This document shows, in pieces, positions 2,451 through 40,700 of a stretch of DNA of 64,000 bases. Below the pieces are notes generated by a model that was given only the letters and a program-made list of their open reading frames with translations, was not told where the DNA came from and did not search any database. Position 1 is the stretch's first letter. Each line of letters opens with the position of its first letter. The position numbers and the translations under genes were made by a program. The stretch comes from an uncultured Anaeromyxobacter sp. (GTDB taxonomy: Bacteria; Myxococcota; Myxococcia; Myxococcales; Anaeromyxobacteraceae): the NCBI GenBank assembly GCA_903904005.1, contig CAIVAR010000173.1, positions 1 through 64,000 on the forward strand, in the 5' to 3' direction.

Positions 2451-5400
2451 TTGTCGAAGGGCAGCCATCCGGGACCGGGCGAGCGTGGAGATCACGCTCC
2501 GCTGACGCCGTCCGGCGACGCCGGCAAGCCCCGCGGGTCCGACGATTCGGCCGACGGCCGTTCGGCGCTCTTCGAGAAACTCGCCCAGGCGGCGCCCGCG
2601 GAGGGCGCCGGCTCGGATCCCACCCGCCTCTCCCCGGCCTCCATGATGGGCGCCGCCGACGGACGCTCGGCCCTCCTCGAGCACTTCGCACGCCCAGCCG
2701 AGCCGGGGACGACGGACGCCGAGAAGTCCCGCATGCTCGTCGAGGCTCTCGCCTCGATGGTGGCCGGCGCCGACGGCCGCTCGCTGCTCGTCGAGCAGTT
2801 CGCGAAGCCCGCGCAGGGCGGCGACGCGGCTGCCGAGATGACCCGCCTCGCGGCCAACCTCCTCACCATGAACGCCCCCGGGGCCGACGGCCGCTCCGCC
2901 CTCCTCGAACAACTCGCGAAGGGACAGCCCGGGGAGACAGGCGGCGCGGGCGCGCAGGCCACGGTGGCGAACCTGCTGGCGAGCATCCTGGCCGCGCCGG
3001 AGGGGCGCTCGGCGCTCCTGCAGCAGCTGGCCCGGGCCGGGGGCGCCCAGGGGGCCACGCGGGCCCAACCGGAGAAGGCGCGTGCGGCGCCGTCCTCGAA
3101 GGAGCTCGTCCCCGGCATGGTGGTCGGCCGCTTCGAGATGGTGAAGGAGATCGGCAGCGGCGGCTTCGGCGTGGTCTTCGAGGCCCGGGACAAGGACCTG
3201 GGCCGATCGGTGGCCTTCAAGGCCGTCCGCCCCGGCGTCCGCACCCGGCAGCTCGACGCCATGCTCCTCAAGGAGGCCGAGTCGGCGGCCAGCCTCCAGC
3301 ACGAGAACATCGTCTCCATCTTCGACTATGGCCAAGGAGAGGCCGGTCCCTACCTGGTGCTGGAGCTCCTCCGCGGGGAGACGCTGGCCGCAAAGATCTC
3401 CCGCGGTCCACTCCCCGTGAACGAGGCGGTCCACGTCGGCATCCAGGTGGCCCGCGCGCTGGCCCACGCCCACGGCGCCGGCCTCCTCCACCGCGACCTC
3501 AAGCCCGGGAACGTCTTCCTCACCCAGTCCGGCGGGGTGAAGGTGATGGACCTCGGGCTGGCCCACTTCTTCGGGCAGCCCACCGGCCTCTCCGGCACGC
3601 CGGCCTACATGGCCCCCGAGCAATGGAAGGGGGAGGCCCAGGACGGGCGCACCGACGTCTTCGCGCTGGGCGTCACCCTCTTCGAGATGCTGGCGGCCCG
3701 CCGCCCCTACGAGGTGCGGGCCGACCGGAGCACCGTGCTCGATCCGGGCCCGGAGCCGAGGCTCGAGCACGCCCACGTCCCGGCGCGGCTCCGCAAGCTG
3801 GTGGAGCGCTGCATCGCCAAGGACCCGGCGAAGCGCCCGGCCAGCGCCCGGGCCGTGCAGGAGGAGCTGCTCGCGGTGGAGCGCGACCTCGCCACCGGGC
3901 AGGTGCGCAAGGGGCAGCTCTCCATGGTCCTCGTGCTGGGCGGCATCCTCACCGCACTCGGCATCGGGGGCGTCGCCGCCTGGAAGTTCTGGCCCCGCGC
4001 CATCGCCAAGGGCGCGCCGCGCACGGTGCTGGTCGCCGACTTCGAGAACAAGACCGGCGAGGACGTCTTCGACGGCACGCTGGAGCCGGCCATCGGCATC
4101 GCGCTGGAAGGCGCCCCCTTCATCACCACCTTCAAGCGGTCCACGGCGCTCGGCACGGCCAACCGGCTCAAGCTCGACGGGACGGGCCTGGGGGAGGCGC
4201 GGGCCCGGCTCATCGCGCAGCGGGAGGGGATCCACGTGGTGGTGGCCGGCACGGCCGAGAAGGCCGGCACCGGCTACAGGGTGAGCGCCCGCGCCATCGA
4301 CGGCTTCACCGGCAGCTCCATCGCCAGCAAGACCGAGGAGGTCAGCGGCAAGGACGCGGTGCTGGGCGCCACGACCAAGCTCGCCGTCCACGTCCGCACG
4401 GCGCTCGGCGACACCAAGCCCGAGGCGGTCCAGCTCAAGGAGGCCGAGACCTACAGCGCCGCGTCGCTGGAGGCGGCCCACGCCTACGCCCTCGGGATGA
4501 CGGCCGCCGGCGAGGGGCAGGTTGCCGAGGCGAAGAAGCAGTACCAGGAGGCATTGCGGCTCGACCCGGGCATGGGGCGCGCCCAGAGCGGGCTCGCGGT
4601 GCTGGAGTACAACGCCGGCCACCACGCCGAGGCCGATCGCTGGTTCCAGGCCGCCATGTCCAACCTGGGACGCATGAGCGACCGCGAGAAGCTGCGCACG
4701 CGCGGCAACTACTACGGGTTCAAGCGGGACGCCGACGCGGCGGTGACCGCCAACGAGGCGCTCGTGAAGGACTTCCCGGCCGACACGGCGGGCTGGGCCA
4801 ACCTGGCCGTGGCCTACCAGCTGAAGCGGGACTTCCCGAACGCCGTCAAGGCGGCGCGCCATGCCATCGAGATCTACCCGCGCAACGTCCCCCAGACCAA
4901 CAACGTGGGGCTCTTCGAGATGTACGCCGGGAACCTCGACGAGGCCATCCGGGTTCAGCAGCGGGCGCTCGAGATGAACCCGAAGTTCCCCAACGCCCTC
5001 ACCGGGCTCGCGCTCGCCCAGTTCCTCTCCGGCAAGCGCGACGACGCGATGGCCACCTGGACCCGCCTCCAGGCGGTGGACCCGTCGGCCGCGGCCGAGG
5101 CACTCGCCGATCTGGCCGTCCACGACGGGCGGCTCTCCGAGGCCCGCACCCTCCTCGAGAAGGCGATCCAGGCCGACCTGGCCTCCGGCGATGGCGACGC
5201 GGCGGCCCGCAAGCTCACCTCGATCGCCAGCGTGTACGTCCTCACCGGGCAGCCGAAGAAGGCCGTCGCCGTGGCCGAGCAGGCGCTCTCGAAGAGCAAG
5301 GAGCCGTACGTCCTCTTCGCGGCCGGGCGGGCGCTCGCCGAGGCGGGCGAGGCGAAGCGCGCGCAGCAGGTCGCCGACGACCTCGACAAGCAGGCCGCCG

Positions 5401-5801
5401 CCGAGTCACGCATGTACGCCGAGCTGGTCCGGGGCGCGGTGGCGTCGAAGCGCGGGGCCGCGGCCGAGGCGGTGACCCACGCCCGGGCCGCGGTGAAGCT
5501 CGTCGACGCCTGGCTGGCCCGGCTCGCCCTGGCCCGCGCGCAGGTGGAGGCGGGCGCCTGGCCGGAGGCGCTCGACGAGCTGGACCGGCTGGAGAAGCGG
5601 CGCGGCGAGGGCGTGGACGTCTACCTCGAGATCGCCCCCTCGGTGCGCTTCCTCCCGTCCGTCGCCTACTTCACCGGGCGTGCACGGGATGGACTGAAGG
5701 ATCCCCGGGCGGCCGACGCCTACCGCGCCTTCCTGGCCGTGAAGCAGGGGGACGAGGACCCGATGGCCGCCGACGCGCGCAAGCGGGTCGGCAAGCCGTA
5801 G
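2451..5801 (+). CDS. Transmembrane Ser/Thr protein kinase with N-terminal DGRS repeats and C-terminal TPRs
   Basis: 1116 residues, TTG start with AGGGGG 4 nt upstream. Order: five DGRSALLE-type repeats (residues 35-195); a Hanks-type kinase domain (about 226-475) with the GSGGFGVV loop, ATP lysine K257, HRD 347-349, N354, D367-L-G in place of DFG, and APE 388-390; one membrane segment (about 491-510); then an extracytoplasmic half with an FENKTGEDVFDGTL region typical of bacterial kinase-TPR fusions and several TPR-like helical repeats (about 600-1100). All catalytic residues are present, so an active kinase is expected. The TPR half probably senses or scaffolds partners. It ends 1 nt before the convergent gene at 5803. 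The N-terminal repeat array is not part of any kinase architecture I recognise. Confidence 0.9.
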   Translation: MSKGSHPGPGERGDHAPLTPSGDAGKPRGSDDSADGRSALFEKLAQAAPAEGAGSDPTRLSPASMMGAADGRSALLEHFARPAEPGTTDAEKSRMLVEALASMVAGADGRSLLVEQFAKPAQGGDAAAEMTRLAANLLTMNAPGADGRSALLEQLAKGQPGETGGAGAQATVANLLASILAAPEGRSALLQQLARAGGAQGATRAQPEKARAAPSSKELVPGMVVGRFEMVKEIGSGGFGVVFEARDKDLGRSVAFKAVRPGVRTRQLDAMLLKEAESAASLQHENIVSIFDYGQGEAGPYLVLELLRGETLAAKISRGPLPVNEAVHVGIQVARALAHAHGAGLLHRDLKPGNVFLTQSGGVKVMDLGLAHFFGQPTGLSGTPAYMAPEQWKGEAQDGRTDVFALGVTLFEMLAARRPYEVRADRSTVLDPGPEPRLEHAHVPARLRKLVERCIAKDPAKRPASARAVQEELLAVERDLATGQVRKGQLSMVLVLGGILTALGIGGVAAWKFWPRAIAKGAPRTVLVADFENKTGEDVFDGTLEPAIGIALEGAPFITTFKRSTALGTANRLKLDGTGLGEARARLIAQREGIHVVVAGTAEKAGTGYRVSARAIDGFTGSSIASKTEEVSGKDAVLGATTKLAVHVRTALGDTKPEAVQLKEAETYSAASLEAAHAYALGMTAAGEGQVAEAKKQYQEALRLDPGMGRAQSGLAVLEYNAGHHAEADRWFQAAMSNLGRMSDREKLRTRGNYYGFKRDADAAVTANEALVKDFPADTAGWANLAVAYQLKRDFPNAVKAARHAIEIYPRNVPQTNNVGLFEMYAGNLDEAIRVQQRALEMNPKFPNALTGLALAQFLSGKRDDAMATWTRLQAVDPSAAAEALADLAVHDGRLSEARTLLEKAIQADLASGDGDAAARKLTSIASVYVLTGQPKKAVAVAEQALSKSKEPYVLFAAGRALAEAGEAKRAQQVADDLDKQAAAESRMYAELVRGAVASKRGAAAEAVTHARAAVKLVDAWLARLALARAQVEAGAWPEALDELDRLEKRRGEGVDVYLEIAPSVRFLPSVAYFTGRARDGLKDPRAADAYRAFLAVKQGDEDPMAADARKRVGKP
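2553..3035 (+). repeat. Five-copy ~38-residue coding repeat (DGRSALLEQLA)
   Basis: Within the kinase gene the motif [DE]GRS-[AL]-L-[LFV]-[EQ]-x-[FL]-A occurs at residues 35, 70, 108, 146 and 184, giving spacings of 35, 38, 38 and 38. Between cores lies a helical stretch such as ANLLTM or ANLLASIL. The DNA copies are diverged, so this is an old protein repeat rather than a recent tandem duplication. Confidence 0.85.
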
Positions 5802-13913: not shown

Positions 13914-14068
13914 ACGTGCAGTTTTCGCCGCTCGTAAGCAATTTGCCCCCGAGCCGAGAGGCTGCGCGTGCAGAGGGCACGCGTCAGTCCCTCGGGAGTT
14001 CCCCGGTGGGGAAACCATTCACCCTAAGTGGTTGCTTCGCCGAGTCCGGCAGCTTCCAGGAGAAAAAC
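13914..14068 (+). promoter_or_regulatory. Structured leader of multicopper oxidase 1
   Basis: Stem-loops: CGCGTGC/GCACGCG with loop AGAGG (13965-13983); TTCCCC/GGGGAA with loop GGT (13999-14013); TCAC/GTGG with loop CCTAA (14019-14031); GCCG/CGGC with loop AGTC (14039-14050). Conserved words ATTCACC (14017) and GCTTCGCCG (14034) lie 17 nt apart. Each element has a counterpart at nearly the same place before the second oxidase, with paired bases changed together in the first stem. The ribosome site AGGAGA follows at 14058. A cis-regulatory RNA is inferred; it does not match a riboswitch class I know. Confidence 0.6.
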
Positions 14069-17000
14069 GTGGACAGGATCCAGAGGTCGATTTTGGCGAT
14101 CGCGGCGGCGGGAGGGCTCGCGTGGGCGTCGATGGCGAGCGCGCAAATTCCGTACAACACCGCGGTCAACCCGGGACCCGACCTGCAGGGGGCCCCGTAC
14201 AACCGGGCCTCGCCGCTGCAGAACGCGGCCGGACCGAAGGGCAACAACTACCAGACCAACTACCCGTACCCGGGGCAGTGCGTCGCTGACAAGACCGCCA
14301 ACGGCGGCCTGTACCCCACGCTGAACCAGTGCGCCGGCGGCAGCTTCGCGAGCCCGTCCCAGCGCACCGACGGCGGCTGGGCTGGCCCCGGCAGCACCGC
14401 CTGGGGCTTCAAGGTGGTCAACCCGGTCTTCCCTTCCCCGACCACGCTGAAGTTCGTCTACGAAGTGCTGAACCCGATGGACTACACGCCCGACACCACC
14501 ACCTATCCGGGCGCCGACTTCTACGTCCTCGGCGTGCACGAGTCGTGGGGCGCGCAGAACATCGCGACCGCCGCCACCGCGCTCGGCCCGACCCTCAAGC
14601 CCCCGTTCGGCCTCTTCCCCGACCCCACGCAGCTCGCGGGCGCGGCCTGCGGCGGCGTGGCGGTGGGCACGATCCCCAACGGCTGTGACATCCCGAACGG
14701 CATGCAGTGGACGGGACTCACCTGCCAGACGACCGGCGGCTGCACCTGCCCCGCCGACTATTCGGGCGCCTATGCGACGAAGTACTGCGCCGGCGGCAAG
14801 ATCCCCGTCGGCAACCCCCTCTTCACGCCTATCTGGGGCGTCGGCCAGATCAACATGGCCGGTGGCCCGGTCACCTCGACCCTCGTCGGGGCCGCCGCCA
14901 CGGTCGGCGTCATCCCTGGCACGCTCGCCATCCCCGCCGCGACCCCGACCGCCGCCTACGCCGCTCCCACGACCGGCCGCTGGTCAACCAACGGTTACAT
15001 CGCCACCTGGCCCTCCATCAGCGTCCGCGCCAACAAGGGCACGCCGGTCGTCGTCCAGTGGGTGAACGAGTTCCCGAACTCCCACGTCCTCTGCCCGCAC
15101 CCCGAGGCCGCCGACTGGCCCTGCGCCATCGACCGCACCTTCATGGGCGTGAAGGCCCGCATCGACCCCAGCCTCGTCCCGGTCGTCGCCGGCAAGTTCT
15201 CCATCCCGCCCAACGGCGTGAACGAGTTCGGTAGCCCGCAGCAGCCGGACAACTCCTGGGTGACCCACCTCCACGGCGGCGAGATCCCGCCCTCCACCGA
15301 CGGCTTCGCCGAGAAGTGGTTCGGCAACGTGGTCACCGCGGCCAAGTACAACGGCGTGGCCGGCAACAACATCCAGCCTCCGTTCGAGTCCCCGGTGGCG
15401 AGCACCCTCAACGCCACGACCGGCGCCTACGAGAGCATCGAGCTGAAGCGCCCCACCGGCTCCACCGACACCTACAGCTACCCGATGGTGCAGGAAGAGG
15501 CGACCATCTGGTTCCACGACCACACCCTCGGCAAGACCCACCACAACGTGATCGCCGGCCCGGCGGGCTTCTTCCCCGTCCGCGAGCCGCTGAAGCACGG
15601 ATCGGTCACCGGCTTCTTGTTCCCGAACCCGGCCGCCGCCGCCGCCGCCACCACCCTGCCCGTCTCGCTGCCGGCCGGTGCCGATTACACCTGGCTCGAC
15701 CCGGTCACCGAGCCGCGCGGCGCCCTCGGCATCCCGATGTACGACCTCTTCCTGGCCCTCCAGGACCGGGCCTTCAACGATGACGGCAGCATCAACTTCT
15801 CGAACGGCCTGGGGCAGCCCATTCCCACCGTCGCGCCGCTGCCCCCCGGCGGCTACACGCCAGTCACCAACGGCGTGAACCCGCTCGTCCACCCGACCTG
15901 GGTTCCCGAGTACTTCGGCGATCACTCGGTCGTGAACGGCACCCTCTGGCCGAAGATCACCGTCGAGCCGGGCTGGTACCGCATCCGCCTCGTCGACGGC
16001 TCCGACTCGCGCTGCTACACCATCGGACTGACCGTGAAGCCCGGGCTCAACGCCCCCACGCCGGCTCCCGGCGGCGGGACGGCGATCGTGGCTCCTGCGA
16101 CCGTGGCTGAGATTCCCCGCAACCTGGCCTTCTGGGTCATCGCCAACGACCAGGGCTACCTGCCGCAGCCGGTCAAGACCTCCTCCTTCACGATGTGCCC
16201 CGGCGAGCGGTACGAGCTGCTCATCAACTTCGGCGCGGTTGGCAACAAGGTCGCGAACGGTGGCGCCGCCACCGTCTTCGTGACCAACACGGCCGCGGCC
16301 CCGTTCCCGGCCGGCATCACGCCCCAGGCGGCCCTCAGCCCCTACGCCGACATGAACGTCCTCTTCCGGTTCGACGTGAACCCGGCCAAGGGTCCTGGCC
16401 TGAAGAGCTGCGGCACGGCGGGCGCTCCCCCCGCGCTGACCTGGGTTGCCGGCGGAACCACCCTTACCCAGTCGACCAACCTCACCCGCGCCGGCACCGC
16501 AGCTGCACCGGGCGCGTACCTGAACGCCTGCATGCCGGCGCAGCCGCAGTTCGTGAAGGACCCGGGCTTCTGTGACCTCCGGGCCGCTCCGACCGCGGCC
16601 TGCCCGGCCCCGGCGACGAACGTCACCCGGCAGGTCTACCTGAACGAGAAGGTGGACGGCGTCACGCTCATGCCGCTCGGCATGCAGCTGAACGGCGTTC
16701 CCTTCGAGTACAAGGTCACCGAGACCCCCAAGGTCGACACGCGTGAGACCTGGCAGTTCATCAACCTCACCGTGGACGCCCACCCGATGCACCCGCACCT
16801 CGTGAAGCACCAGATCGTGAGCCGTCAGCCGCTCAACGTCGGCGTCTTCAAGTCGGCGCTCTGCGGCAGCACGACCTGCCAGCCCGGCCCCGCTCCGGGC
16901 AACGAGATGCAGGTGATTCCGGACGTGACCACGCTCAAGACGGCTGCTGGCGTTGCTGCCCTGGGCGCCGCGGTGGCCGTTACCTCGGCCAGCGTCGAAG

Positions 17001-17269
17001 GCGGCTTCAAGGACGTGTCGCAGGTCCCGCCCGCCAAGGTGACGACCATCGTCGCCGACTGGACCGCTCGCTGGAAGGGCGCCGGCTCGGCCCTCTTCCC
17101 GGTGGGCGCCGCTGCCAACGCCCCCGGAACGGCGACCCCGGTCGCCACTGGGACCGCTGCCTCCTCGTTCGTATACGAACCGGTGACCTCCGGCCCGTAC
17201 GTGTGGCACTGCCACATCAACTCCCACGAGGACTCGGAGATGATGCGGACCAGCCTCGTCGTCCCGTAG
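14069..17269 (+). CDS. Large secreted multicopper oxidase, paralogue 1
   Basis: 1066 residues; GTG start with AGGAGA 5 nt upstream. A signal peptide ends near ASMASA-Q. All copper motifs are present: HLHGG (H400, H402), HDH (483-485), HPMHPH (905-910), and HCH-x3-H-x4-M (H1047 to M1058), giving the trinuclear site and a type 1 site with Met as axial ligand. CotA/laccase-type enzymes of ~500 residues oxidise phenols or metals with O2. This one is about twice as long through long insertions, a size also seen in surface metal-oxidising or metal-respiration oxidases such as OmpB or MofA; homology to those is not shown here. The paralogue at 19753 shares most of the sequence. A strong terminator follows. 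Confidence 0.93.
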   Translation: MDRIQRSILAIAAAGGLAWASMASAQIPYNTAVNPGPDLQGAPYNRASPLQNAAGPKGNNYQTNYPYPGQCVADKTANGGLYPTLNQCAGGSFASPSQRTDGGWAGPGSTAWGFKVVNPVFPSPTTLKFVYEVLNPMDYTPDTTTYPGADFYVLGVHESWGAQNIATAATALGPTLKPPFGLFPDPTQLAGAACGGVAVGTIPNGCDIPNGMQWTGLTCQTTGGCTCPADYSGAYATKYCAGGKIPVGNPLFTPIWGVGQINMAGGPVTSTLVGAAATVGVIPGTLAIPAATPTAAYAAPTTGRWSTNGYIATWPSISVRANKGTPVVVQWVNEFPNSHVLCPHPEAADWPCAIDRTFMGVKARIDPSLVPVVAGKFSIPPNGVNEFGSPQQPDNSWVTHLHGGEIPPSTDGFAEKWFGNVVTAAKYNGVAGNNIQPPFESPVASTLNATTGAYESIELKRPTGSTDTYSYPMVQEEATIWFHDHTLGKTHHNVIAGPAGFFPVREPLKHGSVTGFLFPNPAAAAAATTLPVSLPAGADYTWLDPVTEPRGALGIPMYDLFLALQDRAFNDDGSINFSNGLGQPIPTVAPLPPGGYTPVTNGVNPLVHPTWVPEYFGDHSVVNGTLWPKITVEPGWYRIRLVDGSDSRCYTIGLTVKPGLNAPTPAPGGGTAIVAPATVAEIPRNLAFWVIANDQGYLPQPVKTSSFTMCPGERYELLINFGAVGNKVANGGAATVFVTNTAAAPFPAGITPQAALSPYADMNVLFRFDVNPAKGPGLKSCGTAGAPPALTWVAGGTTLTQSTNLTRAGTAAAPGAYLNACMPAQPQFVKDPGFCDLRAAPTAACPAPATNVTRQVYLNEKVDGVTLMPLGMQLNGVPFEYKVTETPKVDTRETWQFINLTVDAHPMHPHLVKHQIVSRQPLNVGVFKSALCGSTTCQPGPAPGNEMQVIPDVTTLKTAAGVAALGAAVAVTSASVEGGFKDVSQVPPAKVTTIVADWTARWKGAGSALFPVGAAANAPGTATPVATGTAASSFVYEPVTSGPYVWHCHINSHEDSEMMRTSLVVP

Positions 17270-17294
17270 CGCAGGGGCGAGGAAGCTTCATCTC

Positions 17295-17326
17295 GGGGCG
17301 GCGTCCTTCGGGGCGCCGCCCCTTTT
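17295..17326 (+). terminator. Rho-independent terminator after oxidase 1
   Basis: A 12-bp stem beginning GGGGCGGCG closes with a TTCG tetraloop, ends CGCCGCCCC, and is followed by TTTT. It sits 25 nt after the oxidase stop and just before the stop of the convergent gene. Confidence 0.9.
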
Positions 17327-17328
17327 CA

Positions 17329-17970
17329 TTACTGGCTCACCCGGAACGGGACCCGGTAGCGCTGCCCGTCCTTCACCCCCTGCACCTCGACGGAGCGGCC
17401 GCGGAGGATGCGCTGGACGCAGGCGACGAGCCCCTCGCCGGCCGAGCCCTGGGTCTCGATGGGCGCGTCGACGATCTCCACGCTGCCCTGCTGGGCCTCG
17501 AGCTGGAGCATGAGGATCGTGTTCTGGCCGTCCTCCTCGATGGGGGAGCCGTCCTGGGTCCTCGTCACACGGAGTGGACCGTGGCGGGCCTGGACGTCTT
17601 CGTCGAAGCAGACGTCGATCTCGTCCTTGAGCTCGTTGAGGCCGCGGCCGATGGCCGCGCCAACCGGGCCGAGCGCGCCCAGCCTGGCAGCCGGCTTCAC
17701 GGCCTCCCAGGAGCCCTCGGGCGGCGGAGGCGGGGACGGCTCGTAGGTGGGGAGCGGCGCCGGGGCGGTGACGTCGATGGCGCTCCCGCCCGTGCCCCGC
17801 TCGTTCCCCAGGCTCGCGCCGGGAGGGAGCGGCGGCAGCACGATCGGCGGCGGCGGCGGCGGACCGGAGTCGAAGAAGCCGCTCCCCTCGGGCATGAGGA
17901 GCAGCGAACCGACGGCGATTCCGCCGACGACGAAAATGCCCCCCGCCCCGTACAGGATCTTCTTGTTCAC
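17329..17970 (-). CDS. AgmX/PglI C-terminal-domain-like envelope protein (cassette 1)
   Basis: 213 residues, GTG start with AGGGGG 5 nt upstream. It has an N-terminal membrane segment (ILYGAGGIFVVGGIAVGSLLLM), a Pro-rich linker, and a C-terminal domain with CFDEDVQARHGPLRV and GLVACVQRILRGR. Paired cysteines and this ending resemble the AgmX/PglI C-terminal domain of myxobacterial envelope proteins. The related protein at 22927-23568 keeps the CFDE-x-QARHG and LVAC-x-QRILRG motifs. It is the last gene of a three-gene operon convergent with the oxidase. Anchored in the inner membrane with a periplasmic domain; exact role unknown. Confidence 0.8.
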   Translation of the reverse strand: MNKKILYGAGGIFVVGGIAVGSLLLMPEGSGFFDSGPPPPPPIVLPPLPPGASLGNERGTGGSAIDVTAPAPLPTYEPSPPPPPEGSWEAVKPAARLGALGPVGAAIGRGLNELKDEIDVCFDEDVQARHGPLRVTRTQDGSPIEEDGQNTILMLQLEAQQGSVEIVDAPIETQGSAGEGLVACVQRILRGRSVEVQGVKDGQRYRVPFRVSQ

Positions 17971-17978
17971 GTTGCCCC

Positions 17979-18467
17979 CTAGAACTTCACGTCGACGACG
18001 ACCTCCCCGGTCTTCCCGCCGCCCGCGGGGATGAGCCGTGCGCGATAGGTACCGTGGACCTCCCAGGCCCCCTTCACCTTCGTGCTCTTCTTCACCTTCG
18101 AGAGAACGAGATTCACCTCACCCCGCTGCCCGGTGGTCTTGGTGGCCGTGTACAGCGTGCCGCCGTCGGCGGCCACGCTGGCCCTCCCCATGCCCAGGTC
18201 GCCAAGCTCGTACGTCCCCGGCTTCAGCTGATCGGTGACGTCGAAGGAGCCCGGGACGAGGCCCGGGACGCCGTCGACCTGCGTCTTCGCCATGATGACG
18301 AGGTAGACCCGGTTCTCGTCACCGGCGGTGACGGCGACCTCGCAGTCGAACTTGCCGGTGACCGAGCCGGAGAGCGTTCCCTTGCAGGCGGGATCGGCGG
18401 CGCCGGCGGGGCCGGGAAGCGCCCCGAGGACCATCGCCAGGAGCGCCGGGGCGAGAGACCTTCTCAT
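17979..18467 (-). CDS. Secreted hypothetical protein specific to cassette 1
   Basis: 162 residues; ATG with AGGAGGA 5 nt upstream. The signal peptide is MRRSLAPALLAMVLGALPGPAGA. The mature protein is beta-rich with two early cysteines (ACKGTLSG, FDCEVAV) and looks like a small periplasmic beta-sandwich. No known family was recognised. It is the middle gene of the operon, 10 nt after the upstream stop and 8 nt before the AgmX-like gene. The second cassette has no equivalent, where the neighbours instead overlap by 4 nt. Confidence 0.75.
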   Translation of the reverse strand: MRRSLAPALLAMVLGALPGPAGAADPACKGTLSGSVTGKFDCEVAVTAGDENRVYLVIMAKTQVDGVPGLVPGSFDVTDQLKPGTYELGDLGMGRASVAADGGTLYTATKTTGQRGEVNLVLSKVKKSTKVKGAWEVHGTYRARLIPAGGGKTGEVVVDVKF

Positions 18468-18477
18468 CGTCGTCCTC

Positions 18478-19134
18478 CTACTTCTTCGTGGCCGGCGCCG
18501 GGGTGGCCGCGAGCGCGGCATCCGCGTCGGCGAGCGCCTTGCCGAACTCCTGGGTCGATCGCCCCAGCCGTCCGAGGATGAGGTCAGTGGCGTCGGTGCA
18601 GCGCGTGACGTCGGCCCGGGCCGTGGTCATGGCAGCGGACTTCTCGGCGCCCTCCGGCATGTGCATGAGCCCCTCGAGCTGCTGGGCCGGGTACTGGCAG
18701 CCGCGGGTGGGATCGACCGGCCACTGGCTGCTCACGATCTCGCTGTTCTCCGCCCACGCTGCCTGAACCTTGCTCGCGAGCGCCTTCAGGCGCGCAGCCT
18801 CCGCCTCGGGCTTTCCCTTTGCGAGTTCCGCGAGCCGGGTGTCGTACGTGCCGATCTTGGCCTTCCACTGCAGCCGGGCGGCGTCGGCCCTGGCGATCGA
18901 GATGGCGTTGCTCCGGTCGATGGCCTTCTGCCAGAGCGCCTGATCCGCCTTGGTGCCGGGGGGCGCCTCCATCGGATTGGCGGCCTGGTAGGTCGACGCG
19001 TCGGGCGCGGCCGGCACGTCGGCAGGCGGCTGGGTGGCCTGCGGATCGGCGGCGCCCCGGGAAGGGGCGGCGAGCCCGAGCCCGAGCACGAGGAGCGCGG
19101 CGAGGAGTTCAGGACGGAGCGGATTCGTGTGCAT
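18478..19134 (-). CDS. Secreted helical protein with WP-x-DPTR-x-CQY motif (cassette 1)
   Basis: 218 residues with a signal peptide (PELLAALLVLGLGLAAPSRGA). The mature part is largely helical. It shares DQALW, a WKAKI/WKI stretch and W-P-[VI]-D-P-T-R-x-C-Q-Y with the protein at 23565-24146, so the two are paralogues. I do not recognise the family. It is first in the operon behind oxidase 1. A periplasmic partner of the AgmX-like protein is a reasonable guess from conserved context, but no activity is implied by sequence. Confidence 0.75.
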   Translation of the reverse strand: MHTNPLRPELLAALLVLGLGLAAPSRGAADPQATQPPADVPAAPDASTYQAANPMEAPPGTKADQALWQKAIDRSNAISIARADAARLQWKAKIGTYDTRLAELAKGKPEAEAARLKALASKVQAAWAENSEIVSSQWPVDPTRGCQYPAQQLEGLMHMPEGAEKSAAMTTARADVTRCTDATDLILGRLGRSTQEFGKALADADAALAATPAPATKK

Positions 19135-19593
19135 CGCCCAATTCTAGCGCTTCCGGTGCCGGGTGGCCGCGCGGAATGTGGTCGCTCTTGGGGCGCGGCG
19201 AGGAGCGGCGAGCCGCACGGACGCGGCTCCCACCGGACCCCTGGATCGCCATTCACCAACAGTGATGCACCCGGAATGGGATTCCGGTCCGCTCGGGGGA
19301 GGGAGATAAAAATCTACTTCACGGCTCCATCTTGGGTCGTAAGCGCGAGTTTTCCACGACCGAGATGTCATGGCCCGAAGCCTCCCCGGACGGGGCTACC
19401 CGCCAGGCGCAGCCCGTCGGGGTCGAGCCCAGACCAGAGGAGATTTTCATCATAAGCACATGACGCTTCTATCATTTTTCGCCAACCCTCCAGGATTCAG
19501 CCTGTCTTCTCGGCTCCTTAGAAGACCCCGCCGGGTCGGCCTGAATTGACCAAGAGCAAATAAGATCTTCACATCGCGTACCCGGATGCGGGG
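19135..19593. other. Non-coding region between cassettes
   Basis: No supported gene was seen. The region holds promoters for the leftward operon (start 19134) and for oxidase 2. A/T-rich patches occur around 19305-19325 and 19440-19490. A CTCCCCGGACGGGG hairpin-like sequence lies near 19381. An ATTCACC word at 19250 resembles the leader motif but lacks the other conserved elements. Confidence 0.4.
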
Positions 19594-19752
19594 ACGTGTG
19601 CGCATTCGCGCACCTCGCAAACATCGCCTCCGAAGCTTGGCTCCGGTGCGCGCGGGGGGCGCGCGCAGGGATGCCGGCAAGTCCCCGGACGGGGGAGCGA
19701 TTCACCGAAAGTGGAAGCTTCGCCGGAACCGGAAATCGTGGAGGAGAGGGCC
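19594..19752 (+). promoter_or_regulatory. Structured leader of multicopper oxidase 2
   Basis: Stems: TGCGCGCG/CGCGCGCA with loop GGGGG (19647-19667); TCCCC/GGGGA with loop GGACG (19682-19696); TCAC/GTGG with loop CGAAA (19702-19714); CCG/CGG with loop GAAC (19723-19732). ATTCACC (19700) and GCTTCGCCG (19717) are again 17 nt apart, and the ATTCACC-to-start distance is 53 nt against 52 nt in leader 1. The first stem differs in sequence but keeps pairing and a 5-nt purine loop. Confidence 0.6.
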
Positions 19753-22700
19753 GTGAAAACGATGAAGCGGGCATTCCTGGCAGTGGCAGCGGCTGGCGGG
19801 TTGGCGTGGGCGTCGGCGGGCAGCGCGCAGATGACCATCACGAAGCTCAACACGGATCCCAGGGCGGCCAATGCCGCCTTCCCGGTCCAGAACCCGTTCG
19901 GTCCGTCCGGGTCGAACCTCCAGGTGAACTATCCGTACCCGGGCCAGTGCCTGGCGAGCAGCGCGAACGGCGCGATGTTCCCGTCGCTGGGAACGGAGCT
20001 TTGCGACACCCTTCCCTCGACCAGCTTCAGCTGCGAGGACTCCGCCGCCCCGGTGATCAGCCAGCGCTCGGCGGGTGGCTGGGCCGGCTGCGGGCTCCCG
20101 TCGGCCTTCCCGTTCAAGACCCTCGCGCCGGTCGTCCCCAGCCTCACGAACGGGCCGAACGGAACGCCGAAGTTCGCCTGGGAGGTCCTGAATCCTCCCG
20201 ACTACACGCCGGACACCGGCATCTACTCGGGCGCCGACTACTACGAGATCGGCCTGCACGAATCCTTCGGCTTCCAGGGGCTCGCCTCGGCCGGCCTGTT
20301 CCCCAACCCCACCACGCTGAACTGCGGGACCGCGGCGGCGCCGAAGCCGTGCCCCCCGGTGCCCAACGGCATGCAGTGGACCGGCCTCACCTGCAACATC
20401 GTCGGCGGCTGCGCCTGCCCGGCCGACGCGAGCGCCGCGTTCAAGGCCACCTATTGCACCGCACCTGGCACGAAGGTTCCCCGCGGCAAGGCGCTCCTCA
20501 CCCCGATCTGGGGCATCGGCCAGAAGAACGCCGGCGGCGGCCCGGTCACCGCCGTCCTCTCCAACCTCGGCACCTGCCAGACCGCGACGACCCAGACCTG
20601 CATCGCCGGCGCCACCACCGCACCGTGGGCCTGCCCCGCCGGTGATACCTGCGTGATCTTCAACCCGCCGCTCTTCGCCCCGGGCAAGCCCTCGAGCTGG
20701 TCGAAGAACGACTACGTGGCCACCTGGCCCTCCATCAGCATCCGCGGCACCACCGGCCGCCCGGTCGTCGTGAAGTGGGTGAACGAGTTCCCGAACAACC
20801 ACGTCCTCTGCCCGCACCCGGAGGCCGCCGACTGGCCCTGCGCCATCGACCGGACCTTCATGGGCGTGAAGACCCGCATCGACCCGGCCATCGCGACCGC
20901 GAACGTTCCTCCGGACGGCGTCAACCAGTACGGCAGCCCGCAGCAGCCCGACAACTCCTGGGTCACCCACCTGCACGGCGGCGAGATCCCGCCCTCCACC
21001 GATGGCTTCGCAGAGAAGTGGTTCGGCAATGCCAACACGGCGACGAAGTACGCCGGCGTGGCCGGGAACTACGTGCAGCCGGCCTTCGAGAACCCCTCCA
21101 ACATCGCGCTCAAGCGCCCCACCGGGAACGCCGACGTCTACACGTACCCGATGGTCCAGGAGGAGGCGACCATCTGGTTCCACGACCACACCCTCGGCAA
21201 GACCCACCACAACGTGATCGCCGGCCCGGCGGGCTTCTTCCCCGTCCGGGATCCGTCCAGGCACGGCAAGGTGGCCAACTGGGACGGCGCGACCGCGCTG
21301 CCCGCCGCATCGGCCTACACCTGGCTCGACCCGGTCACCGAGCCCCGTGACGCGCTCGGCATCCCCAAGTACGACCTCTTCTTCGCCATCCAGGACCGCG
21401 CCTTCAACGAGGACGGCAGCATCAACTTCTCGAACGGCCTCGGCCAGACGCCGCTGCCGCCGCCCCCCGGCCTCGGCGTGGTGGGCCAGACGCCGGTGAT
21501 CCCCGGCGTGAATCCCCAGGTGCACCCGACCTGGGTCCCGGAGTACTTCGGCGATCACGTGCTCGTGAACGGCGTGCTCTGGCCCAAGAAGACCGTGGAG
21601 CCGGGCTACTACCGCATCCGCTTCGCGAACGGCTCCGACTCGCGCTGCTACACCTCCGGCCTCCTCACCCAGCGTGTGAACGTGCCGGCGCCCGCGCCCA
21701 ACGCCCTCGTGAACGGGAACACCTGGTTCTGGGTCATCGCCAACGACCAGGGCTACCTCCAGAAGCCGGTTCGCACGAAGACCCTCACCATGTGCCCGGG
21801 CGAGCGCTACGAGATCCTCGTGGACTTCGGCAACCTGGGCGTGGGCGGCATCAACGCCTTCGGCGACGCCGCGGTCTACATGACCAACTCGGCACCGGCG
21901 CCCTTCCCGGCCGGGTTCCCCCCGTACCAGAGCGCGCTCGGGGCCTCCCCGTTCCCGCACCTGAACGTCATCATGCGGTTCGACGTGCGCGCGGCCAAGG
22001 GGCCCGGCGTCCGCTTCTGCGGCGCAGCGGCCGCCCCGAAGCGGCTCACCTGGGATCCCGACCAGCCGCTCGCGACCAACGTGCTGACCGGCTGCATGCC
22101 GCCCGACCCCACCAAGGTCATCGACCCGACCTTCGTCGACCTGCGCGCCGCCAACGCGGCGCTGCCGGCCGGCCAGACGAAGCAGATCGTGCGCCACGTC
22201 TACCTGAACGAGCGGATCGACGGCGTCACGCTCTTCCCGCTCGGCATGCAGCTGAACGGCGTGCCCTTCGAGTACAAGGTGACCGAGACCCCGAACTTCG
22301 GGACCCGGGAGATCTGGAAGTTCATCAACCTGACGGTCGACACCCACCCGATGCACCCGCACCTCGTCCGGCACCAGATCGTGAGCCGCCAGGGGCTCGA
22401 CGTGGCCGGCTTCAAGACCGACCTGTGCGGGAGCGCCACCTGCCAGCCGGGACCCTCCCCCGGCAACGAGATGCAGGTCGTTCCCAACGTCGACGGCGTG
22501 AGCGCGCTCAAGCTCCCCTTCCTGCTCGGCGCGGCGACGCCGGTGACGGCGGCGAGCGTCGAGGGTGGCTGGAAGGACGTGGTCCAGGTCCCGCCCGCCA
22601 TGGTGACGACCATCGTGGCCGACTGGGCGCCGCGGTGGCTGGGCGCCGGATCGGGAACGGCGAAGAACCCGCTGGGCGCGCCCGACGCCCCGGGCACGGC

Positions 22701-22866
22701 CCTGAACCCGATCGACAACAGCCCGACCGCCACCTGCCCGACCAGGTCCTGCGCCAAGGCTCCGTGGACCTACGAGGCCGTGACCGCCGGTCCGTACGTG
22801 TGGCACTGCCACATCAACTCGCACGAGGACTCGGAGATGATGCGCACGAGCCTCGTGGTGCCGTAG
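19753..22866 (+). CDS. Large secreted multicopper oxidase, paralogue 2
   Basis: 1037 residues; GTG start with GGAGGAG about 6 nt upstream (an ATG 9 nt later is possible). The signal peptide resembles paralogue 1 (AAAGGLAWAS, cleavage near GSAQ). Copper motifs are intact: HLHGGEIPPSTDG, FHDHTLGKTHH, HPMHPHLVRH and WHCHINSHEDSEMM. Most differences from paralogue 1 are in loops and Cys-bearing insertions (for example FSCED and ATTQTCIAG here). An extracytoplasmic O2-dependent oxidase is expected; the substrate (phenolic, metal ion or other) is unknown. Leader and terminator organisation mirrors paralogue 1. Confidence 0.93.
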   Translation: MKTMKRAFLAVAAAGGLAWASAGSAQMTITKLNTDPRAANAAFPVQNPFGPSGSNLQVNYPYPGQCLASSANGAMFPSLGTELCDTLPSTSFSCEDSAAPVISQRSAGGWAGCGLPSAFPFKTLAPVVPSLTNGPNGTPKFAWEVLNPPDYTPDTGIYSGADYYEIGLHESFGFQGLASAGLFPNPTTLNCGTAAAPKPCPPVPNGMQWTGLTCNIVGGCACPADASAAFKATYCTAPGTKVPRGKALLTPIWGIGQKNAGGGPVTAVLSNLGTCQTATTQTCIAGATTAPWACPAGDTCVIFNPPLFAPGKPSSWSKNDYVATWPSISIRGTTGRPVVVKWVNEFPNNHVLCPHPEAADWPCAIDRTFMGVKTRIDPAIATANVPPDGVNQYGSPQQPDNSWVTHLHGGEIPPSTDGFAEKWFGNANTATKYAGVAGNYVQPAFENPSNIALKRPTGNADVYTYPMVQEEATIWFHDHTLGKTHHNVIAGPAGFFPVRDPSRHGKVANWDGATALPAASAYTWLDPVTEPRDALGIPKYDLFFAIQDRAFNEDGSINFSNGLGQTPLPPPPGLGVVGQTPVIPGVNPQVHPTWVPEYFGDHVLVNGVLWPKKTVEPGYYRIRFANGSDSRCYTSGLLTQRVNVPAPAPNALVNGNTWFWVIANDQGYLQKPVRTKTLTMCPGERYEILVDFGNLGVGGINAFGDAAVYMTNSAPAPFPAGFPPYQSALGASPFPHLNVIMRFDVRAAKGPGVRFCGAAAAPKRLTWDPDQPLATNVLTGCMPPDPTKVIDPTFVDLRAANAALPAGQTKQIVRHVYLNERIDGVTLFPLGMQLNGVPFEYKVTETPNFGTREIWKFINLTVDTHPMHPHLVRHQIVSRQGLDVAGFKTDLCGSATCQPGPSPGNEMQVVPNVDGVSALKLPFLLGAATPVTAASVEGGWKDVVQVPPAMVTTIVADWAPRWLGAGSGTAKNPLGAPDAPGTALNPIDNSPTATCPTRSCAKAPWTYEAVTAGPYVWHCHINSHEDSEMMRTSLVVP

Positions 22867-22893
22867 CCGGCGCGAGAGCCTGAAACGGTTCCC

Positions 22894-22927
22894 GGGGGGC
22901 GGTGCCGATCGGCGCCGCCCCCTTCTT
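22894..22927 (+). terminator. Rho-independent terminator after oxidase 2
   Basis: A GC-rich stem GGGGGCGG-T-GCC / GGC-G-CCGCCCCC with a short loop is followed by TTCTT, 28 nt past the oxidase stop. It occupies the same place as the terminator of cassette 1 and abuts the convergent gene. Confidence 0.85.
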
Positions 22928-23568
22928 CACGGGTTGAGGGGGAAGATCAGGCGCGCCCGCCCCGGCGCACCCACCGCCGGCGTCGGGATGACGTGGCCGC
23001 GCAGGATGCGCTGGGCGCAGGCGACGAGCCCGTCGGAGGCCTTGCCCTGCGACTCCACCGGGGCGTCCGCGATGCGGATCTGGCCGGGCTGCATCTCGAG
23101 GAGGAGCACGAGCAGGGTCACGCCGCTCTCCTGCGCCGTCCGGCCGTCGAGGGGGCGGGAGACGAGGAGGTGTCCGTGGCGCGCCTGGTTCTCCTCGTCG
23201 AAGCAGAGGGCGAGCCGGGGCTGGAGCTCGTTCAGCTCGTTGGCCATGACCGGCCCGATCGCCCCCAGCCGGTTCGGCCGCGCCGCCGTGGGCACCGCCT
23301 CCCACGACTCCGGGTCGGGGAGCACCGGTCCCGGGCCGTACTCGACGGGAGGGGCGGCCTCCACCGCCACGAGCTGGCCATCAGGCCCGATGCCGGGAAC
23401 GGGGCCGAGCGGGATAGGCGCCGGGACGGACCGGGCGGAGACCTCCGGCGGCGGGGCATCGGGTCCTGGCCCCGGATCGCCCCCGGTGGAGAGGATGATG
23501 GCGATGGCGCCGCCCCCCAGGAGCAGGATGCCACCCGCGGCGAGGGCGAGGCGGGAGCGCACGGTCAC
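22927..23568 (-). CDS. AgmX/PglI C-terminal-domain-like envelope protein (cassette 2)
   Basis: 213 residues, the same length as its paralogue in cassette 1. The GTG start overlaps the upstream stop (GTGA), implying translational coupling; a second GTG 6 nt later is possible. One membrane segment (LALAAGGILLLGGGAIAIIL), a Pro-rich linker and a periplasmic domain with CFDEENQARHG and GLVACAQRILRG follow. The two cysteines match those of the paralogue. It is last in a two-gene operon convergent with oxidase 2. Confidence 0.8.
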   Translation of the reverse strand: MTVRSRLALAAGGILLLGGGAIAIILSTGGDPGPGPDAPPPEVSARSVPAPIPLGPVPGIGPDGQLVAVEAAPPVEYGPGPVLPDPESWEAVPTAARPNRLGAIGPVMANELNELQPRLALCFDEENQARHGHLLVSRPLDGRTAQESGVTLLVLLLEMQPGQIRIADAPVESQGKASDGLVACAQRILRGHVIPTPAVGAPGRARLIFPLNP

Positions 23569-24146
23569 TTCCCCGCGGAGGCGGTGGCGGCCAGGGCCTC
23601 CTCGACGGCCGTCACCTCCCGGGCGAGGTCGTCGGTGGACCGCTTCACCCGGACCAGCGTGGCCTTGCCCAGATCCAGGCAGCGCGTCGCGGCGGCACGC
23701 GCCTGCCCCAGCTGGGCCCGATCGCCCCGGGTCGCCGCCACCTCCATCGCGCTCCCCAGGAGCAGCTGGTCGTACTGGCAGGCGCGCGTGGGGTCGATGG
23801 GCCACTTCCCGGTGAGGTCGGCGTGGCTCGCGGTCTGGGCGGCGGCGAGCCGCTTGCGAAGGTCGTCGAGCCGCTTCGCCGCGGCCGGGTCGGCCCTGGC
23901 GGCGGCCTCCAGCCGGGCGTGCAGGTCATCGGTCCGGATCTTCCAGTGGAGGGCGTTGCCCGCCCAGCGCACCGACGTGAGCTCGTTGCCCACGTCGCCC
24001 GTCGCCTTCCAGAGGGCCTGGTCCTCGGGCGAGCCGGAAGGCAGCGGGAGCGGGTCGGGCGTGGCCTCCTGGGCCGACGCCGGGGCGCCGAGGAGGAGCA
24101 GGCCAGCCAGTGCCAGCGGGAGCGGGAGCGGGCGAATCCAAGCCAT
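23565..24146 (-). CDS. Secreted helical protein with WP-x-DPTR-x-CQY motif (cassette 2)
   Basis: 193 residues with a signal peptide (PLPLPLALAGLLLLGAPASAQ). It contains DQALW, LHWKI and WPIDPTRACQY, matching the paralogue at 18478-19134, and a long Ala/Arg/Leu helical middle. The family is not recognised. The start ATG was chosen because it begins the signal peptide; upstream in-frame codons lack one. It overlaps the next gene by 4 nt. Confidence 0.75.
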   Translation of the reverse strand: MAWIRPLPLPLALAGLLLLGAPASAQEATPDPLPLPSGSPEDQALWKATGDVGNELTSVRWAGNALHWKIRTDDLHARLEAAARADPAAAKRLDDLRKRLAAAQTASHADLTGKWPIDPTRACQYDQLLLGSAMEVAATRGDRAQLGQARAAATRCLDLGKATLVRVKRSTDDLAREVTAVEEALAATASAGK

Positions 24147-24210: not shown

Positions 24211-24717
24211 ATGCGCATCCTCCCGGTCGCCGCGGCCCTCGCCCTCGCCCTCGCCTCCCCCGGCACCCGTGCCGCCGCCCCGGAGCCCGCCTCCCCGGGA
24301 GGCTGGCGCGGCGCCCGCTTCGGGATGACCACGGACGAGGTGCTCGCCACCTTTCCGAAGGAGGCGACCCGCATCTCGCCCGAGGTGAAGCTCGCCGACG
24401 GCAACACCATCGGCGCGGCCATCGACGGCTTCGCGTTCGAGGGGCTCACCTTCGACGTCCGCTTCATCTTCGAGGGCGGGAAGCTGGCGCTCGTCAGCCT
24501 GCGGACGCCCCAGAAGAAGTACGTCGACGCCGACGGCTACACGCGGATTCGCGAGGCCCTGGTGAAGAAATGGGGGCAGCCCCTCGAGGACACCCGGGAC
24601 GACAACTTCATCGACCTGCGCCAGACCCGCTGGAACCGGGGGGCGGAGCGGGTGGACCTCAAGTACATCCCGGGCGTGGTGGCGATCGTCCACTACCCCA
24701 GGCCCGCCGCCCCGTAG
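24211..24717 (+). CDS. Secreted hypothetical protein
   Basis: 168 residues with an obvious signal peptide (RILPVAAALALALASPGTRA-A). The mature part starts GGWRGARFGMTTDEVLATFPKEA, a pattern common in small periplasmic proteins that begin with a W-x-G-x-x-F-G-M motif and a helix. No catalytic motif was seen. It is single, divergent from cassette 2 with a 64-nt gap, and convergent with the hemolysin-III gene with a 3-nt gap. Confidence 0.7.
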   Translation: MRILPVAAALALALASPGTRAAAPEPASPGGWRGARFGMTTDEVLATFPKEATRISPEVKLADGNTIGAAIDGFAFEGLTFDVRFIFEGGKLALVSLRTPQKKYVDADGYTRIREALVKKWGQPLEDTRDDNFIDLRQTRWNRGAERVDLKYIPGVVAIVHYPRPAAP

Positions 24718-37730: not shown

Positions 37731-40700
37731 ATGGGCTCCTTCTTCATCCGTCGCCCGATCGTGGCGATGGTGATCTCCATCGTCACCATCATCATGGGGG
37801 CGGTGGCGCTGACCCGCCTGCCGATCGCCCAGTACCCGGACATCACCCCGCCGCTCATCCAGGTGGCCGCCACCTACACGGGCGCCTCGGCGCTCGACGT
37901 GGAGTCGTCGGTGGCCGCGCCCGTCGAGCAGCAGGTGAACGGCGTCGAGAACATGATCTACATGAAGTCGACGAACGCCAACGACGGCACCTACAGCCTC
38001 CAGGTGTCCTTCGACGTCGGGTCCAACCTCGACATGTCGAACGTGCTCGTCCAGAACCGGGTCTCGCAGGCCACCGCCTCGCTGCCCAGCGCGGTGCGCA
38101 ACTACGGCGTGAACGTGAAGAAGTCGCTCAACTTCCCGCTCATGCTCGTCACCCTCACCTCGCCGTCGGGCGCCTTCGACAACAACTTCCTGTCGAACTA
38201 CGCCGCCATCAACATCAACGACCAGATCAAGCGCATCTCCGGCGTGGGCGACGTGGTGCTCTTCGGCGGCTCCGACTACGCCATGCGCATCTGGGTGCGC
38301 CCCGACCGGCTGAAGACGCTCGGGCTCACCGTGGCCGACCTCTCCGACGCCGTGCAGCAGCAGAACGTGCTGCTCCCGGCCGGCCAGATCGGCGGGCCGC
38401 CCGCGCCGAAGGGCACCGAGTTCACCTACGCGGTGCGGACCCGGGGGCGCCTCCTCGACGCGAGCGAGTTCGGCGAGATCATCGTCCGCTCCAACCCGGA
38501 CGGCTCACAGACGCGCCTCAAGGACGTGGCCCGGATCGAGCTCGGCTCCCTGCTCTACAACTCCCAGGGGCGCCTGGACGGCAAGCCCGCCGCGGTCATC
38601 GCCGTCTACCAGACCCCGGGCTCGAACGCGCTCGCCGTCGCCGGCGAGGTGAAGAAGACCGTCGCGGATCTGGAGCGGAGCTTCCCGCCCGGGATCCAGC
38701 AGGCGGTCACGCTCGACACCACGCTCGCCATCTCGGCCGGCATCGAGGAGATCGTGAGCACCCTCTTCGAGGCCGTGCTCCTCGTCATCCTGGTGGTCTT
38801 CATCTTCCTGCAGAACTGGCGGGCCACCCTCATCCCCCTCCTCACCGTGCCGGTCTCGCTCATCGGCACCTTCATCGTCTTCCCGCTGCTGGGCTTCTCG
38901 ATCAACACCCTCTCCCTGCTGGGGCTGGTGCTCGCCATCGGCATCGTGGTCGACGACGCCATCGTGGTGGTCGAGGCGGTCATGCACCACATCGAGAACG
39001 GGATGTCGCCCAAGGAGGCGACCGCCCAGGCCATGAAGGAGGTCTCCGGACCGGTCATCGCCATCGCGCTGGTGCTCTGCGCCGTCTTCATCCCGGTGGC
39101 CTTCATCGCCGGCATCTCCGGCCAGCTCTACCAGCAGTTCGCCATCACCATCGCCGTCTCGGTGATGTTCTCGGCGATGAACGCGCTCACGCTCTCGCCG
39201 GCGCTGGCGTCGCTGCTCCTCAAGCCCAAGGGCACGAAGCGCTCCTTCCTCCAGCCCTTCTACGACGGCTTCAACAAGGTCTTCGACAAGTTCACCGGCG
39301 GTTACCTGACGGTCACCGGCCACCTCACCCGCAAGCTGTTCAGGAGCGCGGTGCTGGTCGGGATCACCGCCGTGGCGGCGGTGCTGATCGCCGGGCGCAT
39401 CCCCTCCGGGTTCGTGCCCGACGAGGACAACGGGTACTTCATGGCTGCGGTCCAGCTGCCCGACGCCTCGTCGCTCGAGCGCACCGACGCGGTCACGCGC
39501 AAGGCCGAGGCGATCCTCATGTCGGAGCCGACGGTGGCCTACACCACCACCATCACCGGCTTCAGCCTGCTCTCGGGCGCGTACGCCTCCAATACAGCGT
39601 TCTTCTTCGTCTCGATGAAGCCCTGGGAGGAGCGCAAGGGAAAGTCCAACCAGGTCTTCGAGGTGATCCGGCGGCTCAACGGGAAGTTGTTCGTGGGCAT
39701 CCCGGAGGCGACCGTCTTCGCCTTCGGACCGCCGCCGATCCCCGGCCTGGGCACCGGCTCCGGCTTCTCCTTCATGCTCCAGGACCGCAGCGGCGGAACC
39801 CCGGAGTACCTGGCCGAGAACCTCCAGAAGTTCCTGGCCGAGGCCAAGAAGCGCCCCGAGATCGGGATGGCCAACAGCGTCTACCGGGCGGCCGTGCCGC
39901 AGGTCTTCGCCGACGTCGACCGGGACAAGGTCTTCAAGGTGGGCGTCCCCCTCACCGACGTGCTCTCCACCATGGGGGCCTACCTGGGCGGAAACTACAT
40001 CAACGACTTCAACCGCTTCGGGCGCGTCTACAAGGTCTTCCTGCAGGCCGAGCCGGAGTACCGCAAGTCCCCCAAGGACCTGGGCCAGTTCTACGTCCGG
40101 GGCCCGAACAAGGACATGATCCCGCTCGACACGCTGGTGTCGACGAAGGCCACCTCCGGCCCCGAGTTCACCAACCGTTTCAACCTCTACCGTTCCGCCG
40201 AGGTCACCGGGGTCCCGTCGCCGGGCTTCAGCTCCGCCCAGGCGATGAAGGCGCTCGAGGAGACCGCCGCCGCGGTCCTGCCCAAGGACATGGGCTACCA
40301 GTGGTCCAACGTCTCCTTCCAGGAGAAGAAGGCCGAAGGCACCGCCGCCATCGTCTTCGTCTTCGCCATGATCATGGTGTTCCTCATCCTGGCGGCCCAG
40401 TACGAGAGCTGGTCGCTCCCCGGCAGCGTGCTGCTCGGCACGCCGTTCGCGGCGCTGGGCGCCTTCCTGGGGCTGTGGCTGGCCCGCTTCACGAGCGACA
40501 GCTACGTGAACAACATCTTCGCGCAGATCGGGCTCATCATGCTGGTGGGGCTCGCCGCCAAGAACGCCATCCTCATCGTCGAGTTCGCCAAGATGAACGT
40601 GGAGAAGGGCATGGAGCCGGTGGAGGCGGCCCTGAACGCCGCCAAGCTGCGGCTGCGCCCCATCCTCATGACCGCCTTCGCCTTCATCCTGGGCGTGCTT

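Follow-up and report, generated by a model that had tools for sequence, protein, structure and literature searches.

The window, that is, the whole stretch of 64,000 nucleotides that was analysed, comes from a soil or sediment bacterium of the Anaeromyxobacter family and sits on a 92-kb contig of its genome (G000; 4.56 Mb, 186 contigs, 98% complete); the closest relatives that bear a name are MAGs of Anaeromyxobacter type. It holds a tandem oxidase cassette made of two adjoining units. In unit 1, OX1, a gene with a GTG start for a multicopper oxidase of 1066 residues (14069 to 17269, plus strand), is followed by a GC-rich, terminator-like hairpin with a T tail (17295 to 17322, plus strand; 12 pairs, 11 of them G-C, found by a terminator scan) and then by three convergent genes on the minus strand: AGM1 (17329 to 17970, 213 residues), MID (17979 to 18467, 162 residues) and WP1 (18478 to 19134, 218 residues). 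In unit 2, OX2 (19753 to 22866, plus strand, GTG start, 1037 residues) is followed by a second terminator-like hairpin (22895 to 22922, plus strand), in which a 12-bp GC stem precedes CTTCTTC (CUUCUUC in the RNA; folding z = -2.5), and by the convergent AGM2 (22927 to 23568, minus strand, 213 residues) and WP2 (23565 to 24146, minus strand, 193 residues), the GTG start of AGM2 overlapping the stop of WP2. Over the window as a whole, the number of sites in the terminator scan was not above that of shuffled sequences. The original prediction had described two units of oxidase, terminator and convergent operon, and these open reading frames and hairpins were recovered; AGM and WP are indeed found in both units, but MID, present in unit 1 and absent from unit 2, had been overlooked.

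Both oxidases matched Pfam Cu-oxidase_2 and Cu-oxidase_3 above cut-off. The closest solved structures in a PDB search were CotA-type laccases (E 2e-34), followed by phenoxazinone synthase and bilirubin oxidase, and a profile comparison to solved CotA-type oxidases gave an E-value of 9e-61. OX1 carries the ligand motifs HLHG, WFHDH, HPMHPH and WHCHINSHEDSEMM, and the copper ligands of OX2 are complete. The four copper motifs, including the type-1 Cys and the axial Met, were present in 13/13 full-length homologs, and three of the four in a copy of genome G026 that is truncated by a contig end. At its N-terminus, OX1 has a Sec-like signal peptide ending ASA-Q, without a twin-arginine motif, as read from the sequence.

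The oxidases had been said to be twice the usual length, which is correct relative to CotA (513 residues). Residues 4-506 of structure 7z5p align collinearly with the oxidase profile, over three cupredoxin domains and a single ligand set, so the length does not come from domain doubling, and we ruled out that explanation. Rather, a single three-domain oxidase is lengthened by an N-terminal extension (about 130 residues) and by several Cys-rich insertions; 17 Cys, not counting the type-1 copper Cys, each recur in 80% or more of the long-form oxidases (964-1074 residues). Short forms, in G015 and G032, have 709-796 residues. Judging from sequence and profile comparisons, OX1 and OX2 are thus enlarged CotA-laccase-type oxidases with one complete copper-ligand set. 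They share the three-domain scaffold and all copper-ligand motifs with CotA laccase, bilirubin oxidase and phenoxazinone synthase, and depart from CotA by their size (about 960-1070 residues for the type), their extension and insertions, the 17 extra Cys and the AGM and WP partners. Mn(II) oxidation has been reported for the CotA of Bacillus (PMC3618234).

In all 22 aligned AGM sequences, hydropathy and Pro count point to one N-terminal hydrophobic segment, a Pro-rich linker and a soluble domain, the predicted topology being that of a membrane anchor with a periplasmic domain; C121 and C184 of AGM1 are near-invariant. The WP proteins are predicted to be secreted and carry the motif WPVDPTRGCQY (WP1) or WPIDPTRACQY (WP2). 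The WP model is a helical bundle (model confidence, pLDDT, about 95 over residues 61-210) without a cofactor motif, and C146 and C179 are invariant. AGM and WP each keep just two Cys. MID is likewise predicted to be secreted, with two invariant Cys, and was judged beta-rich from its sequence pattern. Pfam and profile searches gave no significant match of AGM, WP or MID to known families, and PDB profile searches with the three gave nothing, the AGM matches there being Pro-rich low complexity. Foldseek with the WP model returned generic helical bundles and no informative match.

OX1 and OX2 are approximately 64-65% identical. The small proteins had been called paralogous between units, and they are: AGM1 and AGM2 align with 46% identity over 151 residues (E 5e-37), WP1 and WP2 with 34% over 159 residues (E 3e-22). 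Between-unit identities were 64% for the oxidase, 40% for AGM and 34% for WP. Trees of the oxidase and of WP place unit 2 with the cassettes of G026 and G028, with strong support, and unit 1 apart. There are thus two units, but not a recent duplication: trees and identities rule out a recent tandem duplication of the cassette, and by these sequence criteria the units are old paralogs, unit 2 being orthologous to the cassette of other members of the genus and unit 1 representing an older lineage. Two contigs of G028, C113 (locus L081) and C28 (L082), terminate inside the 5' region of an oxidase gene and have 141 identical bases in common, and their gene orders match units 1 and 2. This suggests that G028 carries the same tandem cassette, split by the assembler.

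The search for WP, by alignment, covered 195 Myxococcota genomes, and that for the oxidase the 147 that belong to the class. At E < 1e-20, WP was found in 11/195 genomes, which are exactly the 11 oxidase carriers. The probability of such a coincidence is 4e-7 when only the 24 family members are counted and shared ancestry is ignored. The proposal that the parts belong together is therefore supported by co-occurrence of WP and oxidase in 11/11 genomes, and the small proteins were not widespread without the oxidase, since WP never occurred without it in the 195 genomes. WP adjoins the oxidase at every locus but one (G029-C9). The small genes are convergent with the oxidase in G000, G026, G028, G029-C27, G030, G031 and G022, lie on the oxidase strand in G035 and G015, and are located about 3 kb from the oxidase in G027; gene order and orientation, first described as constant, are thus not kept strictly, the departures being these three genomes and the split locus of G029. 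There, amt-OX is found on contig C3 and tilS-WP-MID-AGM on contig C9. Because G022 and G030 have the amt-OX-AGM-WP-tilS side in a single locus, C3 and C9 are the halves of a broken ancestral locus, both of them retained, and this accounts for the G029-C9 exception. The WP-MID-AGM set of G029 (L086, beside an 833-residue lipoprotein) was considered as an orphan that would count against linkage, and was rejected as such, being the tilS/ftsH-side half of the split locus.

AGM homologs were gathered by their own sequence and then inspected in genomic context. The family yielded 26 of them: 20 have a giant multicopper oxidase within 4 kb, 3 adjoin multihaem proteins of at least 1400 residues, 2 adjoin a 770-residue cadherin-domain protein, and the last is that of the split locus. 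Altogether 23/26 adjoin a giant oxidase or multihaem cytochrome, in a tally that relied on a home-made gene finder and an oxidase motif test, so that single assignments may be wrong; the neighbour of AGM on contig C22 of G026 was assigned by visual inspection of its N-terminus, and two AGM are shortened. As there are 0-6 PF07731 matches per genome, we estimate that AGM would adjoin such a gene by chance in approximately 1-2% of copies. Many AGM copies are orthologous, so the 26 amount to about six independent contexts. AGM may be convergent, co-directional or divergent with its neighbour, which argues that adjacency is kept, rather than a gene order inherited. Several of the AGM-linked oxidases are very long (1237-2104 residues), with FN3 domains in L104, weaker ones in L107 and L110, and Ig-like repeats in L109; those of L104, L107 and L137 are co-directional with AGM and close to it. 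A periplasmic partner set for the oxidase, as originally proposed, thus describes WP well, but AGM partners several kinds of giant redox exoproteins. Outside the family, the AGM of G122 and G123 adjoin a protein of about 400 residues, with no giant redox protein on those short contigs, and the simple gene finder did not confirm the matches in G096 and G105 as genes.

Individual AGM loci have further features. At L095:7454-12845 (G000 C171), L096:165-5126 (G000 C184) and L100:3254-8398 (G029 C26), AGM paralogs are convergent with proteins of 1400-1550 residues that have CxxCH haem motifs (five in complete copies), with FN3 in L095 and L100. At L106:7702-12879 (G015), a 1237-residue multicopper oxidase, an FKBP isomerase and AGM follow each other on the same strand, in a mofAB-like arrangement plus AGM. 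At L109:9749-15271 (G024), a multicopper oxidase of 1840 residues with several C-terminal HYDIN/ASH-type Ig-like domains is followed by a 361-residue PPC/Big_2 protein and AGM. Multicopper oxidases of 1780-2100 residues adjoin AGM and a protein of 778-781 residues at L103:9011-15325 (G028 C25) and L112:1-5348 (G000 C73), in surroundings that look like an exopolysaccharide-type gene cluster.

Geobacter OmpB and OmpC and Leptothrix MofA come from metal-cycling bacteria and are, as OX1 and OX2 putatively are, secreted multicopper oxidases of very large size. Fe(III) oxide reduction requires OmpB, an outer-membrane oxidase, and the isomerase MofB has been proposed to fold MofA (PMC5566968). In the family, AGM homologs adjoin oxidases that are apparently of the OmpB/MofA kind. 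OX1 and OX2 themselves have no FN3 domain by Pfam, unlike OmpB, in which it is reported, and their best match is CotA, a separation from OmpB/MofA that was made without direct sequence comparison; moreover, no MofB, MofC or SCO1 gene was recognised beside them, unlike in the OmpB/MofA clusters.

The enzyme is an enlarged form of a known kind, and its partner set is uncharacterised. As the original prediction had it, no described system of this composition was found in the open-licence papers searched. Our leading reading, which we hold tentatively, is that either unit combines the gene of a giant secreted oxidase of CotA type with those of a dedicated periplasmic maturation and secretion set comparable to Lif or CpaB. 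From the observed anatomy, intact copper ligands, co-occurrence and AGM adjacency, we infer the following course. The oxidase would enter the periplasm via Sec, where about eight potential disulfides and four coppers would have to be installed. AGM and WP, in a chaperone-like role, may help giant redox exoproteins mature and leave the cell, possibly by a type II route, and the oxidase would then act on the cell surface or outside, on phenols, Mn(II) or Fe(II).

This mode of action has precedents. Lif, LipB and CpaB are membrane-anchored type II chaperones whose genes lie beside that of their effector (PMC4713064), and a Geobacter multicopper protein reportedly uses an atypical type II system for its secretion (Mehta et al. 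2006, as cited in PMC6199725). Like these chaperones, AGM has a predicted N-terminal anchor, a single periplasmic domain and a gene adjoining a client that is probably secreted. A type II secretin was present in 8/8 genomes tested. An anchored, Pro-rich-tethered protein beside a large disulfide-rich enzyme, together with the secretin and the Geobacter precedent, makes a role in maturation or secretion the most likely one; the 17 extra Cys of the oxidase, the AGM found in a cluster with a giant oxidase and an FKBP isomerase, and the helical-bundle model of WP, which lacks a cofactor motif, also favour it.

Several observations weigh against a maturation and secretion set. AGM, WP and MID have no sequence match to any known chaperone, and AGM and WP no fold match; none of the 22 AGM matched the Pfam lipase-chaperone or SRPBCC families, so that homology was detected neither to Lif nor to the CpaB SRPBCC domain. 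The small genes of most OX units converge on the oxidase, unlike the operonic Lif and CpaB genes, and a single AGM family lies beside several types of putative client. The 770-residue cadherin-domain neighbour of two AGM has no redox motif, the oxidase on contig C3 of G029 has no small genes beside it, and unit 2 of G028 has WP without AGM. Finally, every example of oxidase with WP comes from one bacterial family, so shared ancestry accounts for part of the linkage.

It is also possible, though we advance this with more reserve, that AGM founds a new family of inner-membrane-anchored assembly or secretion factors for several unrelated giant redox exoproteins, with WP being specific to the laccase. 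If so, extracellular electron-transfer proteins of the Anaeromyxobacteraceae would share one export module, its clients being CotA-type giant laccases, OmpB/MofA-like giant oxidases and giant multihaem-FN3 cytochromes. How large disulfide- and cofactor-rich oxidases and cytochromes mature and are exported is poorly known; metal cycling by Anaeromyxobacter and relatives of Geobacter has been connected with such giant extracellular oxidases and with multihaem cytochromes. The cassette supplies three uncharacterised families, AGM, WP and MID, as candidates for such maturation or export, and the AGM family would point to a handling step shared by several unrelated electron-transfer proteins.

The main rival to a maturation role, which we nevertheless consider unlikely, is that AGM is a small transducer or tether of the TonB/TolA/GltG type, holding or driving the giant redox protein at the surface via an outer-membrane partner. 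Anchor, Pro-rich linker and small C-terminal domain follow the plan of TonB, TolA, GltG (PglI) and GltJ (AgmX); by eye, the two Cys and the order of helices and strands match the GltG C-termini; and TonB (ranks 1 and 23), TolA domain III (ranks 2 and 7) and HasB (rank 43) are among the highest-ranking, though weak, Foldseek matches of the AGM model. However, the best Foldseek E-value was 0.52, profile-profile comparison of AGM with the GltG C-termini failed (hhalign probability 0.3 percent, E 0.19), and Pfam TonB_C had no match in AGM. The AGM proteins are also short (about 200 residues, versus 640-674 for GltG and GltJ), have no FHA or other cytosolic domain and no His in the membrane segment (22/22), and motor genes were not recognised beside the cassettes. 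The description of AGM as AgmX/PglI-like, with which the analysis began, is thus apt for its architecture and Cys pattern; membership of that family is not supported by the profile comparison, and the NCBIfam GltJ matches, which span the anchor and linker only, were rejected as evidence for it.

Metal delivery is another function to be weighed against maturation. A Sec-exported apo-oxidase would need periplasmic copper, and a copper chaperone gene is frequent in OmpB/MofA clusters (PMC5566968), so the small proteins could load copper into the oxidase rather than act in its folding or secretion. Yet they show no conserved Met/His/Cys metal cluster, the two Cys each of AGM and WP are best read as a disulfide, and AGM adjoins haem proteins too, which makes this distinctly unlikely. 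We give about as little credit to the idea that AGM, MID and WP belong to the mature oxidase complex as stable subunits, structural or regulatory, or as inhibitors of it: a subunit would be expected to occur strictly with this oxidase type, as WP does, but AGM has a predicted membrane anchor and recurs beside several unrelated giant proteins, and AGM and WP diverge far faster between units (34-40% identity) than the oxidase does (64%). Last, adjacency merely inherited within one bacterial family, with no functional tie, would fit the restriction of all oxidase/WP cases to Anaeromyxobacteraceae but is very unlikely, as linkage persists through different orders, orientations and neighbourhoods, G029 keeps both halves of its split locus, and AGM recurs beside unrelated giant redox proteins.

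Upstream alignment revealed a 26-base stretch that is similar between the leaders of the two oxidase genes: ATTCACCCTAAGTGGTTGCTTCGCCG 5' of OX1 (14017 to 14042, plus strand) and ATTCACCGAAAGTGGAAGCTTCGCCG 5' of OX2 (19700 to 19725, plus strand). A scan for sigma-70 promoters found nothing. Divergent from WP2, a gene for a secreted protein of 168 residues (24211 to 24717, plus strand), without a match in a Pfam scan, is a probable cassette-edge member by neighbourhood clustering (cluster cl4): its family is also at the cassette edge in G026, G028 and G029, and is nearby in G027.

Other oxidase loci differ in their surroundings. Together with the short-form oxidases, G015 and G032 encode not only WP but also a secreted WG-repeat-type protein (L092:8091-9155 and L093:2887-3945). 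In g3 and g5, two further genera of the family (L084, L087, L088 and L091), the oxidase gene and an ammonium transporter gene (PF00909) are divergent, and a conserved secreted protein of 253-267 residues usually comes next in the row. G000 has a third oxidase (L094:157-6990, contig C161), of 689 residues and with a twin-arginine-type N-terminus, which adjoins a 477-residue adaptor-like and a 1107-residue RND-pump-like protein, and is probably part of a metal efflux system. Elsewhere in the window, and unrelated to the cassette, are an AcrB-type RND pump (37731 to 40901) and a Ser/Thr kinase with TPR repeats (2451 to 5798).

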